From Pohlia nutans (Eukaryota > Streptophyta > Bryopsida > Bryales > Mniaceae): 64,000 nt of DNA. Below are positions 5,962 to 61,345 of this stretch, in pieces. The stretch is from the NCBI GenBank assembly GCA_022496805.1, contig CM040085.1, forward strand, positions 13,979,811-14,043,810. The letters run 5' to 3'. Below the pieces are notes generated by a model that did not search any database, was not told the origin of the DNA, and saw only the letters and a list, made by a program, of their open reading frames with translations. Both the position numbers and the translations under genes were made by a program. Position 1 is the first letter of the stretch. The number at the start of each line of letters is the position of its first letter.

Positions 5962-7647
5962 TTATCTATGAGAACCGTGGCTGCTTCCGGACCTGGAACC
6001 TTTCTGCTTCTTCACATACGTAGAAGGAAACCAACCTGATTGACCATTGCACAGCCCCTCCGACCATCCCGAGGAAGTCACCTGACGCACCACAACCTCG
6101 TCACCGACAGAAAAAGTCAACTCCCCCACATCCTCACCTTCAAAATCATGCGTTGCAGTTGCATAGAAGCTCTTGCTAGTCTCAGCAACAGGAGGGTCAA
6201 CGCTGTAACTCTTTTCCTCAACGCCGTAACTCTTTTCATGTTTCTCTTCTTCCAAGTCTTCAATGGCCACAACTTGAGTGAACTTTTGTGGCACCACAGT
6301 GGCTTTTTTCGCAGCGGGTTTCTCCTCAGCCGGGGGAGGAAGAGCTTGTACATTCACTTGAGACTCAATGTGGTGATGAAGCTGGTCTAATATGCTTGTG
6401 ACGCGTTGGAAATACGCGCGTTCGTATTCCACCATAGCCAGGATTTTCTGCAATGAGATGTTCTGTTGTTGAGACTCAACTAAGCTCATGGCAGACAAAG
6501 CGTTTTTACCCATCGTGTCCATGTTCGACATGATTTCGTCTAACTTGTGTTCAGCGGCTTGTAATTTGGCAACTTGTTCTGGATTGCTCTCCTTGGCTCT
6601 GAGAGTCTGGGTCTTGGTAGCTTGAGTGTCGGCATCTTGACGCAGCCGATCGTACTTTTGCTTCAATTGCCGGGCGTCTCGTAACGGGGGGCCGTTGGCC
6701 ATGGCTTTGAGAGGCTCGGCAACGAGAGTACTGAGAGCTCGGTGGAGGTTGTCCCGCTCCTTCTCCATCTTGTTCTTGGCCAGCCCGTATTGCACTGTGG
6801 CTTTCGAGAGCTTGTCTTTCACACTGGGGCCCTCGGATCCATACTTCTTGCAATCCTCGGCAAGTTTGTTGGCAATCTCGTATTGCTTGTGACCTGCACC
6901 AGTGATTTTTTTTTTGTCAGAAGACAGTTTAGCGTTTTTGATAGAGTCTTTCCATGTCTTGAAGAGTAATCCTTGGATGCTCTTTTCATATTCATATATG
7001 GGTAATATCAGGGTAATACACATGTGCTACCAGGGTGCTACTTAGGCAATACTTGGGTGATACCTAGGTTTAAAGAGGCTACACATCTTGACTCCATGTA
7101 GGAAATCTGGTTGTTATTCCTTCTTTTCTTTTCAACAATCTTTTGTATCAATTTGGTTAAAATTAGCATCAAAAAATCATTGACCTACACTAGCAAAAAA
7201 ATTTGTGGCTACATATCGCCAACTTGCTATTTTAAAAATGGGTTTGCTATGTTGTTGTAAGAAAAATTGGGTAAAAAAATAGAGTATATCGCCATAATCT
7301 TCCCTTATCATTGGTATGTGTTATAGCCAAGAACTCTATAGAAAGGGCCCTATGTATTTGTAGTAAAAAGAAATTGTAAATCGTCAAAAAATAAATGCTT
7401 TCTATTTCTCAAGTTTCAATATTCAAATCGGGGACTCCCTTGAAAAAATGAAAAAAAAAAATCACTGACCTACACTGATGAAGCCTTCCACCCCTTTGAC
7501 GACTTCCTTCTGAAAGTGCTTTCCTGCCCGAGTGGACGTGTACAGACGAACGAGCTCCTGGTTTCGTTGCTGCTCCGCTTCGTCTAAGAACGCATGGCCG
7601 CTTCCTCCGCTTCCTCCGAACTTGAATTTCGGTTTCAAGAATGCCAT
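5962..7647 (-). CDS. SH3P-type SH3 domain protein (clathrin/autophagosome-associated family), two coding exons
   Basis: Coding exons on the minus strand are 7647-7470 and 6893-5962, giving about 370 residues, close to plant SH3P1-3. The junction GTAG|GTCAGT ... GCAG|GTCAC joins GFISVG to HKQYEIANKLAEDCKKYG, which fits the family consensus. Residues 1-300 form the helical BAR-like region with EGFIS, MEKERDNLHRAL, VAEPLKAM and EYERAYFQRVTSILDQL. Residues ~305-356 are an SH3 domain (ATHDFEGEDVGELTF, SSGWSEG, SGWFPSTYV). Family members bind phosphoinositides, ubiquitin and clathrin-coat partners in endocytic, cell-plate and autophagic traffic. The start at 7647 gives MAFLKPKFKFGG and lacks the MDA(I/L)RKQA opening of angiosperm SH3Ps. 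Unusually for the family, the last 932 bp are one uninterrupted exon, and the only coding intron is a mobile element. Confidence 0.92.
6900..7467 (-). mobile_element. Introner copy A: hAT-like TIR element forming the SH3P coding intron
   Basis: Read on the gene strand, the element starts CAGTGATTTTT and ends AAAAATCACTG. It is flanked by 8-bp repeats GTGTAGGT (7475-7468) and GTGCAGGT (6899-6892), one mismatch apart. The intron 7469-6894 runs from the GT of the first repeat to the AG of the second. The body matches copy B (23072-23347) along its length: shared CTACATGGAGTCAAGATGTG, GTGTATTACCCTGATATTAC, AAAGAGCATCCAAGGA and GCTAAACTGTC. A nested retroposon enlarges it from about 280 to 568 bp. 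The 8-bp TSD and CAGTG ends suggest hAT; no transposase is encoded. Confidence 0.88.
7192..7455 (+). mobile_element. Nested poly(A) retroposon (SINE-like) inside introner A
   Basis: A 264-bp insert ends in a long A run and is flanked by a 21-bp direct repeat at 7171-7191 and 7456-7476 (one mismatch; contains TGACCTACACT). The repeat spans the end of SH3P exon 1, so insertion duplicated the exon/intron junction with its splice donor. TSD length and A-tail fit LINE-mediated insertion. No Pol III A/B boxes were identified with confidence. The start CACTAGCAAAAAAATTTG also resembles a CACTA end, a weaker alternative. Confidence 0.65.
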
Positions 7648-15812: not shown

Positions 15813-18165
15813 CAGTGACGAACAAAACTGAGTATTGATTTGAAACTTTTCCATTCAAACAACCATACCATGAGCATCAATGGGCAAAGTCCAAAAGTGA
15901 ATATGCAAAAGTTGTAGCATGCGACATATAACACATTACTATGGAAGTTTGAAGAAAAACTCAATTGTGATTTGAAAGAAAATGAATTTCAAAGTTAGCC
16001 ATGTCTAATACTCGGTTTTGTGCGCTATAATTCGGAACTACTTTAAATTTTGTCAATTTTTTCTTAGAGCTTCAAAAAAACATTATGTGCCTTGGCATGT
16101 TGGTATACATCATTTTAGATTGTTGTACACGAAAATTGAAGGAAGTTGACATTTATAAAATTTAAAATATTCACAATTTGACAAACATGCAAATGATGTT
16201 AGTTCTCATGATATTTGGATATTTTTTTGGAATTGAGAGCATGGGACTGCATTGGCTATTGTATAGAGAGCATAGGTTGCAACATGAACCATTGTTACAT
16301 CTTAATGCCCTTGCATTTGAAATAGTTGTTGAATAGGCCAATGCATTCAATTTGTATGATGCAGTTTTTTGGTCTAACTTTTTTGTACGGAGTCTAGAGT
16401 TCATGACGCACATAATCAATGAACCAATTGAACAACTTGTTTTTGTTGCTTTCAGTATCATCAAAAAATTGTCAATTTTATGAAAGCCAGTGTAATTTCT
16501 AGCAGCTTTGAATTTTTTGATGATATTGAAAATGATATGTTTTTTTTTTTTTTTTGATTCGTTGGATTGATTATGTGCAACAAGAACTCTAGTCTTTGTA
16601 CAGTGGGGTCCAACATGGAATGGCGTTTTTGGTTTCGCAGTGAGAAAAATTTCAGTACTGCCAACTTTGAAAGCCTCCCGAGAGCTCAAATATTGGTATT
16701 TTACCACGAAAATTTTACCAGAGACTTATCTTTAAGTTAATTATATGTATGCCAAATTTCAAGGCCAAAAGATTCACCAAAAAAACGTTATTCAAAATCT
16801 ACCAACATTGGTAGTTATTCACTGCTGCCAACTTTGACAACCTCCCAAAGATTGAATTAATTTTTTTTTGCCATGAAATTCTTGGAAAAAGAACTTCTTT
16901 ATGTTAATAACATATGATAAAAATTTCAAGGCCAGAAGATTAATACAAAAAAGATATTGACAATCTACCAACATGTGTAGTTGTGGGAAACAAGGGGGAA
17001 ACTTTGCTACCAACTTTGACACCCTCCCTACGGTTGAGAAATTGTCTATTTACCATGAAATTTTTGGTACAACATGCTCTTTATGACAAAATCATTCATG
17101 CCAAATTTCAAGGTCAAAAAATCTATACAAAGAAAATTATTTACAATCTACCAATGTGTGTAGTTTCCCCCATTGTTTCCCACAACTACACATGTTGGTA
17201 GATTGTTAATATCGTTTTTTGTATTAATCTTTTGGCCTTGAAATTTTTATCATATGTTATTAACATAAAGAAGTTTTTTTTCCTAGAATTTTATGGCAAA
17301 AAAAAAATTAATTCAATCTTTGGGAGGCTGTCAAAGTTGGCAGCAGTGAAAACATTTCCACAGCTACCAATGTTGGTAGATTCTGAATAACTTTTTTTGG
17401 GTGAATCTTTTGGCCTTGAAATTTGGCATACATATAATTAACTTAAAGATAAGTCTCTGGTAAAATTTTCGTGGTAAAATACCAATATTTGAGCTCTCAG
17501 AAGGCTTTCAAAGTTGGCAGTACTGAAATTTTTCTCACTGCGAAACCAAAAACGCCATTCCATGTTGGACCCCACTGTACAAAAAACCTAGACCAAAAAA
17601 TTGCATTATACAGCTCTAATATATAAATTGAACGCATTGGCCTATTTAACAGCTATTTCAAATGCAAGGGCATTAAGATGTAACAATGGTTCATGTTGCA
17701 ACCTATGCTCTCCATACAATAGCCAATGCAGTCCTATGCTCTCAATTTCAAAAAAATATTCAAATATCATGAGAACCAACATCATTTGCATGTTTGTCAA
17801 ATTGTGAATATTTTAAATTTTATAAATGTCAACTTCCTTCAATTTTCGTGTACAACAATCTAAAATGATGTATACCAACATGCCAAGGCACATAATGTTT
17901 TTTTGAAGCTCTAAGAAAAAATTGACAAAATTTAAAGTAGTTCCGAATTATAGCGCACAAAACCGAGTTTTAAACATGGCTAACTTTGAAATTCATTTTC
18001 TTTCAAATCACAATTGAGTTTTTCTTCAAACTTCCATAGTAATGTGTTATATGTCGCATACTACAACTTTTGCATGTTCACTTTTGGACTTTGCCCATTG
18101 ATGCTCATGATATGGTTGTTTGAATGGAAAAGTTTCAAATCAATACTCAGTTTTGTTTGTCACCG
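15813..18165. mobile_element. 2.35-kb foldback element with Tc1/mariner-like ends and TA target repeat
   Basis: The ends CAGTGACGAACAAAACTGAG and CTCAGTTTTGTTTGTCACCG are inverted and each is bordered by TA (15811-15812, 18166-18167). Arms of about 1.17 kb are near-perfect complements; the spacer (~16990-17165) is short. Each arm contains diverged ~165-bp direct repeats, each with CAACTTTGA, a CCATGAAATT-type word, CCAAATTTCAAGG and ATCTACCAA (16650-16815, 16824-16985, and a third in the spacer). Frames in the arms are non-coding. A transcript would form a very long double-stranded RNA. Confidence 0.85.
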
Positions 18166-21826: not shown

Positions 21827-23741
21827 ATGCTGGGACTGGCAGTGCGGAGGAGCCGCCCACAATCCTCCCTGGCAGGCGCTCTGATCGCCCATCTTTCTTC
21901 ACAGGTTTGAATTCTGGACTTCTGGATACTTGTTTGATTTAATGTGTTTTCGTTTCAAAGGCGTTTGAGATTGAACGATCGACAATGCCATAAATGGACT
22001 AACCCCTAAGCGTCCACTGTGTATTTTCTGTAGTGTAGGAAAATTGGACCCCCTGCTGCAAATCATCTGTTTGTTTCTGTGAAAACGACTTCAGTTTGAC
22101 TGACACAATCGATATTGTTGATCTTGTAGTATAGAACAAGAGCTTTAAAATTCAGATGTATTGCAATCAGAAAACTGAGGTAAATTGAGAAAATGCTACC
22201 GTTGCAAAGTTCAGTGATGCAGATGGCCATATTGGGCGTTTCAGACGCTGTTAAGGAAGTAAAGTACCAAGAATTCAATCATTCATATTGTGAAAAATGT
22301 AATTCAAATGGGACCAAATTTTATGACACCGGAATCAGTGAAGAACATTCCATGTGTTAATCAAAAACACAAATAAATGTGAACAGAAGAAACTCTACAC
22401 AGGACCTACTCCAAACTGCTAAAAAAAACATGAAGCCCAATTTGGGCTTCTTGGTCCTTTAGGGGTTAACATGCTTTTAGTATGAATGTGACGTGACGCC
22501 ATTATCGCTCATGTTAATAGTTTGTTACTGAAGTCATTGTGGATGTTCAGAATGGAGCAAGAGTTTTCCCGAGTATACAGTCACCAGGTGCTCGGCACGT
22601 AAGTATGTCTGCAACAGGGGAAGAGAGTTTCCGAGAACGTGAAGATCTGGATCGTTACATGAAATCCCGGTATGATCAAGAGAGTCTGAGGAGCAATAGA
22701 ACTGAGTCAGAAGAGGAGCTCCGGTGTGAACCTGTCCAAGTAGAGGAGGATATATTGAAGCGAAACGATAAAGGAAAATTCGAGATCTTGGCCGTACTTG
22801 CAGATCCCCACGTGCTAGCAGCAGCTCATGAAAGACTGAATGAAAGGCGAAGGAACTGGACTCTAGCCAGTAATGAATTAGAAGTCTCCCATGTTCCCAA
22901 GGAGAACACATTGTTGCGTTCACGAGAGATCGACTGGAATTGGTTCAAAGAAGCTGCACATCTTTTAAGCACTGGATCATATGTGTTCAAACCTGTTCAA
23001 ACCCTTGACATTGCCAGGCGGGGACGTGGGGAGTCGAGACAGTGGGCGTTTGTGAGGCCAAAAGATCAGGTCAGTGATTTTTTTGTTACATAAAATTTGG
23101 GCTGGCTAATTTATACAAAGGATTTTTGAAAAAAGAAGAGGGAATAATAGCTAAATTTCCTACATGGAGTCAAGATGTGTAAACTTAAGTATCACCCAGA
23201 TATTGCCTAAGTAACACACATGTGTATTACCCTGATATTACCTATATTTTAATATGAAAAGAGCATCCAAGGAGCTTGGATTACTCTTGAAGCCATGGAA
23301 AGTGTAGCAAAAATGCTAAACTGTCTCCTGACAAAAAAAAGTCACTGGATCAGGTCATTCAAGAGGCAATTCGAGGTGTGTTGGAGAGGATCTATGAACC
23401 CGTGTTACATGGTTCCGGGTTTAGACCAGGTGCAAGTGTTCACGCAGCTCTCAAGTCTGTAAAGTATGGGTGGAAAGGAATATCATGGTTTCTGCAGTTT
23501 GATGTTCGCATTACAGATCATGCTAGTGTGCAGAAACGGCTGTTGAAAATCTTAGGTGAGCAGATAGAAGACGAAGCATTTGTAGATATGTTGAGGCAGA
23601 TGTTCAAACTTGGTACCATATGGATCGACACTTCCACAGACGAGGACATGCCTGAAGGGAGCGTTTTGTCTCCTATGTTAGGCAACATCTACTTCCATCA
23701 TTTGGATCTGGAGATCAGTCGCATCCAAGAGGAAATCAGAT
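21827..23741 (+). CDS. Nuclear-encoded group II intron maturase/RT relative (nMAT-like), N-terminal three exons
   Basis: Exons 21827-21904, 22551-23069 and 23354-23741 give about 328 residues in frame. Residues 1-26 (MLGLAVRRSRPQSSLAGALI...) are Arg/Ser/Ala/Leu-rich with no acidic residue, like a mitochondrial presequence. Residues ~85-330 match the group II RT N-terminal and finger/palm blocks: VLADPHVLAAAHERL, GSYVFKP, VRPKDQVIQEAIR, IYEPVLHGSGFRPGASVHAAL, FLQFDV (first catalytic Asp, ~249) and MPEGSVLSPMLGNIYFHHLD. Family members are imported into mitochondria or plastids and assist group II intron splicing. Angiosperm nMATs are mostly intronless, so both introns look gained; intron 2 is an introner and intron 1 holds a P1 MITE. 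The donor GAT|GTAAGT at 23742 is followed by no convincing exon (the nearest acceptor, ~23930, gives TAA), so the gene is either longer than I can resolve or decayed. Confidence 0.78.
22251..22469 (+). mobile_element. P1 MITE in maturase intron 1
   Basis: 219 bp from TTAA 22251-22254 to TTAA 22466-22469. The right end CTTGGTCCTTTAGGGGTTAA is intact; the left inverted end has decayed to TTAAGGAAGTAAAGTACCAA. Confidence 0.82.
23072..23347 (+). mobile_element. Introner copy B: hAT-like TIR element forming maturase intron 2
   Basis: A 276-bp element begins CAGTGATTTTTTTG and ends AAAAAAAAGTCACTG, flanked by a perfect 8-bp repeat GATCAGGT (23064-23071, 23348-23355). The intron is 23070-23353: donor GT is the end of the left repeat followed by the CAGT of the element, and acceptor AG lies inside the right repeat. 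Removal restores AAA GAT CAG GTC ATT CAA, the conserved RT block RPKDQVIQEAIR. Same orientation and homologous to copy A (6900-7467). No coding capacity. Confidence 0.92.
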
Positions 23742-23966
23742 GTAAGTCTCAGACCTCACTAACGTGATCGACGTCAAAATATTTTCTTTTGCAATTGGTT
23801 TGTCACTAAAATTGTCTTAAACAATTGGGCCTTCAATCTCAGGCAGGTGGAATTTTGAACGTTTTTCTTGCCGTTCCATTTATTCATGCATTCCTGATTT
23901 CTAAATGTGGATTGGTTATTGCAGAATGTGTTGGGCCCTATGTACACTCTGCCTTGCACACAGTTT

Positions 23967-40993: not shown

Positions 40994-42063
40994 TTAACCC
41001 CTAACTGCCTAAGCCCTCTTTTTTTTAGCTCGATGTACAAAATTGAATTTGGTCTTTTTAGCAGTCGTGCACTTTTTGCTTGGGGGGTGCACTCTACATT
41101 ATGTTTGAGAATCACGTGCGTTCATGACCCCTTCTAAAAACCCCCTATATACGAGAGGCTATATGTCTAAAATACCTTTGTATACAGATTTATTTCGTTT
41201 TAAAAATATGTTTAGTGTAAGTATACGTGAATATTTTCAGTTCTAAATGTGTTTATTGTATGTATACGTAATACGGTACTGTTTAAATTAATACCCCTTC
41301 ATTGCACTCACGTATACTCGTACATATTTAGTACAATGCACCCCCCGAGACTTTTTGCAAGTAAAAAAAAAATTACAAAATTCTATAACAAGATAGCTTC
41401 ATACATGTGTGATCCAATTAGAAAGGGGATGATTTAAGGAAAATTTATGCCTCAAATCATGCCACATTGTTCCACCAAGAATTTCTAAGATCTTAGTTCA
41501 AACTGAATCAAAAGTGGTCTTAAAAAAATCAACTCATAAAATTAAGCAATTAAAAAATCTCCAACAATCACTACATTTAGAGTATCACATTTCAACCCAT
41601 TACAGTAAATTTCATCCATAGAATATCAATATTTTATTTTTAATTGAATTACAAAAGAATTTCAAATTTCAAATTTTATACAAGAATATTGGTGATTGCA
41701 ATCATACATATCATAATAGAGCAGTGCAATGGAGCACCCTTTTGAAAACTAGATTGAAAGAAAATCTTCATTTAGCCATTCAATTTTGTAAATAACAAAG
41801 GAATGCCATTTGTATTCCATGAATTTTGGGACTACCTTCTTAGTTTCTAATGGTTATTAGATTGTGGTCCCATTGCAAAAGGATGTTGGGTTCCATTACT
41901 CTATTATGCTATGTAGATCTAATCACATGGATAGATCTAAAATTCATAATGTACAACTTTTATTCATACAACAAGTTCAAAATATTCCTCTTAGTTTCAT
42001 TTTATAATGCATTTTTGCAATTCAAATCTGGAGAGGGTTGTAGAGATGGCATTTAGGGGTCAA
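40994..42063 (-). mobile_element. TTAA element, family P2, interrupted by a family G element
   Basis: TTAACCCCTAACTGCCTAAG at the left and GGCATTTAGGGGTCAA at the right. The P2 body is split by the insertion at 41079-41349. Reverse orientation relative to 39583. Confidence 0.8.
41079..41349. mobile_element. Family G element nested in P2 (271 bp)
   Basis: CTTGGGGGGTGCACTCTACA at the left; AATGCACCCCCCGAG at the right. A direct repeat ACTTTTTG (8-9 bp; 41071-41078 and 41350-41357) flanks it. Body homologous to 31694-31955. Confidence 0.85.
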
Positions 42064-43320: not shown

Positions 43321-43414
43321 TGTATTCACGATGAAACGGAAGCAACCATTCAAGGGAATTTTCAACCATTATGCAAAATGAAAATAATGATAAGTGGGTG
43401 AAAGCACTATTGGG

Positions 43415-43827
43415 CCCGGGGAGTGCACTTAAAGTTGAGATTAGAAATACACATGAGTGCGTTTTAATAGCACACCCCCTACAATACTTGGCCTTAAAAT
43501 AGTTTTTTAATTAAGATTTTTTAGGCCCCAAATCATTACGTATATATCTATCATTTGGTATAAATTTCACGACCAAAAGTTTTAAAAATCTTATAAAAAA
43601 AATGATAGAAGTTTGAACTAGAATGTGTTGTTTGTTGCTTCAAAAATCAATTTAAAAATATTTACAGGTGATTATTTTTTGAAAGTTATACAGCAAGAAC
43701 TTTAGATTGTGTTTAACAACTTCATATTTTTTTACAATTTTTAGATGATTTTTTAGTACATACATAGGGGGGTCAAAAGTGCGCACTCACGTGATTCCTA
43801 GTCTTAACTTTAAGTGCACTCCCCGAG
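43415..43827. mobile_element. Family G-like element with perfect 8-bp target repeat
   Basis: CCCGGGGAGTGCACTTAAAG and CTTTAAGTGCACTCCCCGAG ends, flanked by CTATTGGG at 43407-43414 and 43828-43835. 413 bp; interior unrelated to copies 1 and 2 beyond the termini. Confidence 0.82.
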
Positions 43828-43839
43828 CTATTGGGTGGA

Positions 43840-46517: not shown

Positions 46518-48177
46518 CAGTGCCGACCAGAAGTCTTCGCACAGTGGCCCATCACTTCAACAGGTGTTGACTATAGCTTAGTAAGTGAGTTTACAGGAGA
46601 TTTTTTGGGTTAGCATTAATTGATACACCACATGGCACCTAATTAACATTGACTCCCCAAAACTTTGCCTCTTGTAGAAATTATTCATGCAAAAATCGTG
46701 AAGGGGTGTGTACAACTTAATATGCACATCAGTTGTACACACCACTATCTTCTCATTAAAATTGCACTTGTGAGGCTTTTTGTTTTGGATTTTTTTTGTA
46801 TGATTTGGAGAGGCCTTTGGTGATTCACTATGGCTCCTAGAAGGTCTGAGAATCAACGTAGGGCAGTTCTTGAGATGTATGAGCGAGGCAACTCATATGG
46901 TCAGATTTCTACAGTTTTGGGCATTCCTCGAAGCACTTCTTCTGACATAGTGCGAAGGTTCCGTGAGAGAGAGAGTCTAACAGATAAAACTTCACCTGGT
47001 AGACCTAGAATTCTAGATGAACGCGGTGACCGTGGCATTGTGAGGAGATTAAATGATCCAAATACTAGCACAGCGGCAGCTATAGGAAGAGTGTTACGAT
47101 CTGAGGGCTTCCAATTGAGTGATAATACGGTGAAAAGGAGTCTTCGGAGGCAAGGGTTGAGAGCATGCGTGAAGACCAAGAAGCCACTTTTGACAAAGAA
47201 ACATCGAGCACGTCGTTTGCAGTGGGCAAAGAAGTGCAAGCATGCAGATTGGGAGTTTTGGGCTCATGTCATTTTTTCTGATGAGTCTAAATTCAATCTT
47301 TTTGGCTCAGATGGACGTCAGTATTGTTGGAGAAAGAGTGGAGATCGTCTTTTAGATCAGCATGTGCAATCTACAGTCAAACATGGAGGAGGAAACATAA
47401 TGGTTTGGGTTGTATGACTTGGGAAGGAGTTGGCAAGCTTCACCTGATTGAAGGGAAGATGGATAAATATGTATATCGCAACATTTTAGAGACGGAACTT
47501 ATGGGTACTATACAGATGCAAGGTTTAGAAGAGGATGAGGTTATTTTCCAGCATGATAATGACCCAAAGCATACTGCACATTATGTTATAGAGTGGTTGC
47601 GTGCTAAAAAATTTGAGCTTATTGGACACCCTCCACAATCACCTGATCTCAATCCAATAGAACATCTTTGGAATGAAGTAAATCGTCGTCTGAGAAGGTC
47701 TAAAAGGAAACCAACTAGTAAAAGTGACTTATGGGAGAAGATCCAAGAAATTTGGTACGGTATAGAGCCTGATGTTGTTAGGAAGTTAATACGCTCTATG
47801 CCTCAAAGAGCTCTTGATGTCTACCATGCAAGAGGTGGCCACACACGGTGGTAGTGTTTGTGAGTGCTTATGAGTTGAATCATTGAGTTATAAAGGTGTT
47901 TAGTAATTTTTAATCTTATTTTCTATAGTTGATATGCAATAAAAATCAATTTGACCATAAAGAATTGTACAGGCTTGTTACACATTTGAATTATTGTGTG
48001 TTTTTCTAATTCATATTTTCATTGAAAACTTTGTGTTTTATGCTTGTTGCAACTATACGTGCTTGTGATTGTGTTCTTGTTATTTTATGAGAGTTCATGT
48101 AGATTTGGCAAGTATTTAAAAAAAAAAACTCCTCTTGTACAACTATTTGTGGTTGCCACTATTTGTGGTTGCCACTG
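46518..48177 (+). mobile_element. Tc1-type (DD34E) DNA transposon, 1660 bp
   Basis: The left end CAGTGCCGACCAGAAG and right end (complement) CAGTGGCAACCACAAATAG form an imperfect inverted repeat, bordered by the target dinucleotide TA (46516-46517; 48178-48179). The right end has a 16-bp tandem duplication (CTATTTGTGGTTGCCA). Size and organisation match a full-length Tc1 element with one transposase. Left and right ends are only about 70% alike, so it is probably not very recent. Confidence 0.85.
46830..47854 (+). pseudogene. Tc1 transposase, one frameshift
   Basis: Frame 1 (46830 to about 47408) holds a paired helix-turn-helix region (MAPRRSENQRR..., QISTVLGIPRSTSSDIVRRF, a GRPR hook at ~57-60, then a second HTH around LRSEGFQLSDNTVKR) and the first catalytic Asp in IFSDESKFNLFG (residue 151). 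Frame 3 (from about 47410 to TAG 47854) continues with GCMTWEGVGKLHLIEGKMD, second Asp in FQHDNDPKHTA and Glu in LNPIEHLWNEV. Exactly 34 residues separate the second D and E, the Tc1 DD34E signature. Losing one base near 47407-47410 (TTTGGGTTG) shifts the frame, so this copy should be inactive unless that is a sequencing error. Otherwise no stop is seen. Confidence 0.92.
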
Positions 48178-60512: not shown

Positions 60513-60608
60513 CCAATTTTTAAAGAATGACAATCAACTTGATTTTTAAAAAAATTATCCTAGATTCTCAACTTAATTCTCCAATTTAAAGAATCAAACC
60601 GTCATTTC

Positions 60609-61337
60609 CTGGGGGGTGCACTACAATATCCCGTATGGAACTATGTGAGTGAACAAAAGGGGTATTAATTGTGGGGTGGGCTTACAAAATATACATAAGC
60701 TTAGGGTATTACTTTGTTCAATTTCGTAGCCCATTTTTAATGTGATAAAAATTGTAAATTTACATATAGGGCCATTCGCTTAAACTTGGTATTTAGGAAG
60801 GGTTAATAGAATGCGTAGAAAAATCACTGATAGGTGGGTTGAATATAGAGAACCAATTGATTTGTTGGATCGACCATCTCATATAGAGAATTGGAGATTG
60901 GATTGTATTGGTACAAAAAAGATCATCGATCACTATAAACTTATGACTTGACAGATCATATCATGATAGACTTAGAAAATATTATTGCACTAGCTTGAGT
61001 AGCTTCAATAACTTTTGTTGTAAGAAAAAACTTGCATGAGTTACATCCTACGGATAAAAAAAGTGTTTAATGACTTTATCAATGATAAATAAGTACCTTT
61101 GTAGTGAAAAAAATTAGGCCTATTTTTAGACCATGTTTTTCATTGTATACATATGTTAGGCTTTTGCTTTTTTAATTTAATTTGAACATGCATACATACA
61201 TTAGGCTTCTATTTTGTTATATGTATGTATGTATATCAATTTTTTTAATGAAAGAAAAACCATATATAGGGGTATTAATTTGGAGGTGACGCACGCACGA
61301 TATACCTGGCTTTTAACACTAAGTACACCCCCCGGGC
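60609..61337. mobile_element. Family G-like element, 729 bp
   Basis: CTGGGGGGTGCACTACAAT at the left, AAGTACACCCCCCGGG at the right. Flanked by CGTCATTTC (60600-60608 and 61337-61345), a 9-bp direct repeat. Interior largely unique, AT-rich and non-coding. Confidence 0.8.
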
Positions 61338-61345
61338 GTCATTTC

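Follow-up and report, generated by a model that had tools for sequence, protein, structure and literature searches.

A hAT-like miniature transposon predicted to form introns at AGGT sites in genes of the moss Pohlia nutans

The window, by which we mean the whole 64,000-nucleotide stretch of Pohlia nutans DNA analysed here (CM040085.1, positions 13,979,811 to 14,043,810), contains a truncated maturase-like gene whose reading frame is broken by a short element lying between two copies of an 8-bp repeat. The parts of this locus are:

22539..23069, + strand: coding exon upstream of the break in the truncated maturase-like (group II intron reverse transcriptase) gene, its 5' end provisional
23064..23071, + strand: left target repeat GATCAGGT, with the predicted donor AG/GT at 23069/23070
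23070..23353, + strand: predicted intron, 284 bp
23072..23347, + strand: 276-bp element with the ends CAGTGATTTTTT and AAAAAGTCACTG
23328..23332, + strand: CTGAC, a branch-site-like motif 23 nt upstream of the acceptor
23348..23355, + strand: right target repeat GATCAGGT, with the predicted acceptor AG ending at 23353
23354..23767, + strand: downstream coding exon, up to the stop

We have confirmed to the base the arrangement described in the initial annotation, in which GATCAGGT is followed by a 276-bp element with CAGTGA...TCACTG ends and then by GATCAGGT again; the inverted ends pair at 11 of 12 positions. A strict scan of the window for identical 8-bp repeats 100-1000 bp apart that enclose inverted ends matching at 11/12 or better, with low-complexity and self-complementary repeats excluded, returned three elements, this one among them, as against a total of one in 100 dinucleotide shuffles. 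When the predicted intron is removed in silico, joining 23069 to 23354, the product reads ...RPKDQVIQEAIR... and its junction is gap-free against the 14 best of 35 homologues, which bears out the earlier claim that splicing within the repeats leaves the reverse transcriptase block in frame. All 14 tblastn alignments of these same homologues with the window break at the element (five of the homologues extend three codons into it, and one of these five also 18 codons), and Pfam assigned no family to either of the two unspliced halves. Were the intron retained, an in-frame stop would follow 21 nt past the donor. The donor, CAGGTCAGT (CAG/GTCAGT), fits CAGGTAAGT, the U1-type consensus, at eight of nine bases. 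The best named relative of the protein is from the moss Ceratodon. We note that the maturase-like protein (22539-23767, + strand) begins like an LtrA-type reverse transcriptase and stops short of where the catalytic YADD would be expected; it is likely to be without catalytic activity because its reverse transcriptase part ends before that position. Since the target is regained whenever an insertion is taken out along with one copy of its repeat, a restored target is by itself no proof of splicing, and the weight of the argument therefore rests on other copies of the element.

A second copy lies in the same window, in a gene for an SH3P-like protein on the opposite strand, where it is stacked with a unit of a different family:

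7470..7647, - strand: SH3P coding exon 1
7468..7475, - strand: repeat GTGTAGGT, predicted donor
6894..7469, - strand: predicted intron, 576 bp, the sole break in a 369-codon frame
7191..7467, - strand: B1, a 277-bp unit of a different family, stacked before B2
7183..7190, - strand: inner repeat GTGTAGGT, separating B1 and B2
6900..7182, - strand: B2, 283 bp, a full second copy of the maturase element, with which it agrees at 226 of 262 aligned bases
6892..6899, - strand: repeat GTGCAGGT, predicted acceptor
5962..6893, - strand: SH3P coding exon 2, with an SH3 domain downstream of a BAR match that spans the junction

The break in this gene thus consists of GTGTAGGT, 568 bp made up of B1 and B2 with the inner GTGTAGGT between them, and GTGCAGGT. 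Both window loci of the element sit at AG/GT within coding frames, and no other locus passed a relaxed scan of the window (same ends, repeat matching at 5/8 or better), in which 16 end pairs were considered. The SH3P intron has CTGAC 24 nt upstream of its acceptor, and the BAR match crosses the junction with an E value of 1.2e-5, which is below the Pfam cut-off for acceptance. The best named relative is again from Ceratodon, the single named member of the six-row clade in which the window protein falls. A read-through peptide, translated from the frame that leaves the element and stays open in the SH3P exon, was searched for and gave no candidate. B1 at first seemed to be B2's own family in a decayed state, a view we dropped when a relative of B1 was found elsewhere as a separate intron. 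Stacking at the single SH3P target site comprises two units in the window copy and three in the copy of the gene on contig C2 (locus L052), with repeat-like sequence between the units; the inner AG/GT of the intron could act as a stepwise splice site.

The window holds other mobile sequences and repeats. A Tc1-like transposase lies in two overlapping frames at 46824-47854 (+ strand), another transposon family, marked by 8-bp repeats and by inverted ends resembling CYYGGGG(G/A)GTGC, is present at 41071-41357, 43407-43835 and 60600-61344, and a long inverted repeat occupies 15900-18078; over the stretch searched, its outer arms measure 487 nt and show 95% complementarity. Neither Rfam nor a tRNA scan gave a hit anywhere in the window, and Pfam found no family in ten further window ORFs.

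In the genome, whose 332 contigs total 697,796,988 bases, a first look with the element yielded 3051 candidates. The 40 that were scored we read as loci L001-L040; the 39 scored copies other than the window element are 85-89% identical to it. These loci contain 45 copies, 44 of them with both ends located, and identical 8-bp repeats flank 18 of the 44 (one of the 18, L011, has weak ends). AGGT is present in sense in four of the 18 perfect repeats, those of L001 (the window element), L012 (in a gene for an F-box protein), L019 (PROPPIN) and L040 (MutS domain, MSH1-like), and here the ORFs that cross the junction are 320, 415, 278 and 511 aa long, respectively, as against 18-177 aa (median 68.5) in the element's sense for the 14 perfect-repeat copies without AGGT (Fisher p 0.0003). 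Looking genome-wide for copies with AG/GT and 8-bp repeats, as the initial annotation had proposed, does recover many AGGT copies, with the qualification that AGGT is missing from 14 of the 18 perfect repeats of this first sample. L002, whose repeat is less regular, splits a PFK-domain gene at the element in the same way as the AGGT copies do, and CTGAC is found 20-23 nt before the acceptor in L001, L002, L012, L019 and L040. The PFK-domain gene has a second predicted intron, derived from a B1-type element lying in the opposite direction to B1 of the window. At L029 the repeat GTCCAGGC would provide a GC donor; we do not claim this copy as an intron because its junction ORF is only 177 aa. The exact element word had no match in viral and prokaryote contigs.

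The element's end CAGTGATTTTTT occurs 2077 times in the genome, compared with 173 occurrences of a reversed-letter control. AGGT stands immediately before 67 of the 2077, a count that misses decayed copies because it requires a perfect 12-base end and in which duplicated genes are counted twice, and it is displaced by one base in 30; both figures are 0 for the control. The expected number is 8.1 if AGGT has a frequency of 1 in 256, and 5.6 if it is as frequent as in the window, so that the observed number is some 8- to 12-fold higher. We read the first 30 of the 67 loci in contig order. A 3' end, defined by a repeat matching at 6/8 or better and an element end at 4/5 or better, was found at 22 and not at the other eight, in which the upstream frame is nonetheless open to the donor over 45-264 codons. 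Three loci (L045, L055 and L064) were removed by eye as false 3' matches with no element end. The 19 loci kept represent 13 independent insertions because they include six duplicated pairs; their repeats match at 8/8 in 13, 7/8 in four and 6/8 in two. The junction ORF exceeds 177 aa, the maximum of the non-AGGT set, at 15 of the 19 (median 320), and the other four (69, 129, 132 and 161 aa) are inside the range of the non-AGGT copies. Retention of the intron would bring an in-frame stop within it at all 19 loci. Fourteen copies are in sense and five in reverse orientation, and CTGAC lies 22-30 nt before the acceptor in 13/14 of the sense copies and in 0/5 of the reverse ones. The earlier proposal that the element contributes CAGT after the donor GT stands, with the correction that sense copies also supply this branch-site-like motif. 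Among 11 spliced proteins chosen for testing, a Pfam match crosses the junction in seven (PROPPIN, PFK, HMGL-like, alpha-amylase, GH17, xyloglucan fucosyltransferase and, below the cut-off, BAR), and no match lies over it in the other four.

Six pairs of duplicated genes have a common insertion site and encode proteins 89-98% identical, with dN/dS of 0.16 (L041/L051), 0.08 (L042/L052), 0.38 (L044/L053), 0.09 (L046/L054), 0.79 (L058/L060, over 129 codons) and 0.44 (L066/L069); pooled pN/pS, with ORF ends untrimmed, is 0.27. Exons within these pairs are 93-98.5% identical and the alignable parts of the introns 79-96%, and the two introns differ in length in all six, the SH3P pair (L042/L052) having introns of 576 and 909 bp, the longer with three stacked units. 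Three more pairs (L048/L056, L065/L068 and L067/L070) appear to share their insertions. The P. nutans genome has been described as 698.20 Mb on 22 chromosomes with a recent genome duplication (PMC9247546). The duplicated pairs presumably stem from this event, and the constraint on genes that carry an insertion would be best explained by splicing.

The maturase-like gene itself has close kin in the genome. The window protein, on contig C1, gave 16 matches, three of which are near relatives, named here by their contigs. Two of these, C2 and C3, carry the same insertion, in introns of 570 and 247 bp with nine and eight in-frame stops that share a short 5' part of the window copy; in C3 a stop lies a short way upstream, and this copy appears to be incomplete. 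The genome search assigned one open frame of 496 aa to both pieces of the C2 copy, which suggested read-through of its intron, a reading we rejected given the nine in-frame stops. The third relative, C4, has a single GATCAGGT and no element at the site. We regard C4 as less likely to represent the ancestral empty state; the tree groups C1 with C2, and the filled C3 with the empty C4, so the most likely history of C4 is a later, precise loss of the intron, such as would be expected of loss via the spliced message.

We consider it highly probable that a short non-autonomous DNA transposon of this moss has inserted into coding exons at AGGT, flanked by 8-bp repeats, and that it is predicted to be excised as a whole intron. 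The initial annotation had proposed intron gain by insertion of a DNA transposon at AGGT, the 8-bp repeat supplying the GT of the donor as well as the AG of the acceptor, and the many further copies in the genome support this. It is very unlikely that these are instead ordinary gene-disabling insertions into exons whose precise "introns" are accidents of the repeat. That explanation can point to the automatic restoration of the target noted above and to the 14 perfect repeats without AGGT, but it would not account for junction frames open over hundreds of codons in 4/4 AGGT copies of the first sample and 15/19 of the second, nor for AGGT at many times its expected frequency, nor for gene pairs that have kept the insertion and have a pooled pN/pS of 0.27, two of them with values of 0.08-0.09. 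The AGGT excess might also reflect the taste of the transposase for its target rather than the survival of spliceable insertions, and we regard this as unlikely. AGGT is more frequent directly before the element than one base off, and stacked units reuse a single site in the SH3P gene, as a target preference would predict; however, the other 14 perfect repeats are diverse, and positions 5-8 of the repeat are also where the CAGT of the element completes the donor. The long junction frames at AGGT copies in both samples argue for more than mere target taste. We infer that survival by selection lies behind the excess.

Had the introns spread by reverse splicing of their RNA, the mechanism put forward for introner-like elements of fungi, copies would be alike from end to end with intron boundaries, and such copies are what we see. 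Yet no target repeat is expected of a reverse-spliced element, and the 8-bp repeats match at each site and not across copies: the bases before the final AG (GATC, GTGY, GTTC, ATCC and others) agree with the copy's own upstream exon and not with those of other copies. The inverted ends, and 8-bp repeats on copies without AGGT, point to DNA transposition, and we have rejected reverse splicing, to which we give next to no chance. It is extremely unlikely, too, that the element overran old introns so that no intron was gained. Related mosses were compared at the protein level only, which leaves that idea some room, but target repeats exactly at the splice sites would have to be a coincidence at every locus, the homologues found for each of the two window genes, with Ceratodon proteins as the best named ones, continue through the site as protein, and the site is uninterrupted in the C4 paralogue.

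Insertion by a DNA transposon could give rise to introns as follows. The transposase would insert the element and duplicate 8 bp of the target, leaving the repeats that we see. Where the duplicated target contains AGGT, a pattern visible in the sequence, the left copy would become the donor AG/GT and the right copy the acceptor AG/GT, CAGT, with which the element begins, would lengthen the donor into GTCAGT, and the CTGAC seen in sense copies some 20-30 nt before the acceptor may serve as the branch site. Spliceable insertions would persist in exons, since their removal would restore the old message exactly, and others would be lost. Later the intron would drift and might add units at the same site, as is seen in the duplicated genes.

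By its architecture the family is an introner family, its introns being predicted from the DNA. Similar predicted introns occur in unrelated genes, namely the maturase, SH3P, PROPPIN, MutS-domain (MSH1-like), F-box and PFK-domain genes and further HMGL-like, alpha-amylase-domain, GH17 and xyloglucan fucosyltransferase genes. The element fills the intron from end to end, some copies in duplicated genes having gained extra sequence, and predicted splicing leaves the message unchanged, with the repeats of L051 and L067 matching at only 6/8. We think it likely that a hAT-like miniature transposon with many copies has served a land plant as an introner, turning up to about 100 AGGT sites in the genome of one moss into introns, in either orientation and alongside a B1-type family, with units that stack, lengthen the intron and offer an inner AG/GT for possible stepwise splicing. 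Where new introns come from has long been asked, and gains on a large scale have been tied to introners in mostly aquatic organisms. A survey of 3,325 genomes found introners among animals and land plants in two groups only, both of them animals, and built its model on their absence from land plants (PMC9860276). If our reading is correct, bursts of intron gain driven by transposons extend to land plants, which that survey reported to be free of them, and the birth, survival, growth and loss of introns can be put to direct test in a land plant whose genome is published and reportedly underwent a recent duplication. Our searches of open-licence papers, on introners and land plants as well as on intron gain by transposons in plants or mosses, found no introner family reported from a land plant.

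The family is best described as hAT-like and non-autonomous (a MITE). The initial annotation knew of no hAT-like land-plant family of this kind; the host is indeed a land plant, a moss, but we would place the element near hAT by end structure and repeat length only, that is, by its 8-bp repeats and its short inverted ends of the CAGTG type, the hAT consensus, and single spliced transposons were already known in land plants. The hAT-type element Dissociation (Ds) of maize, inserted in an exon, is reportedly removed by splicing, an observation attributed to Giroux in 1994. The Ds cases are reportedly single mutant alleles, whereas the moss family is multi-copy, affects many genes and includes insertions common to duplicated pairs.

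Spliced transposons of Zea and Oryza are also tabulated in a review (PMC3443670), where 35 events, all resting on indirect evidence, are listed for Oryza, Drosophila, Oikopleura and Zea. That source sets out the proto-splice site model, in which a transposon entering a duplicated AGGT obtains both splice sites and leaves the message unchanged, and the moss family is alike in that the duplicated AGGT gives both sites; it differs in being one family at many sites of one genome, the evidence being indirect for both (PMC3443670). The introners of Aureococcus resemble the moss family in their 8-bp target repeat but bring both splice sites with them and lengthen the message by 12 bp, whereas neither site lies in the moss element, for which no added bases are predicted (PMC9860276). 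Introners of Florenciella sp. and other protists are closer: many genes have introns made by a single family, the insertion site provides both splice sites, and some families have target repeats and inverted ends, the moss family being set apart by its host and by an 8-bp repeat with CAGTGA ends that is hAT-like. Among published cases, the Florenciella type is the nearest in splice-site logic (PMC9860276).
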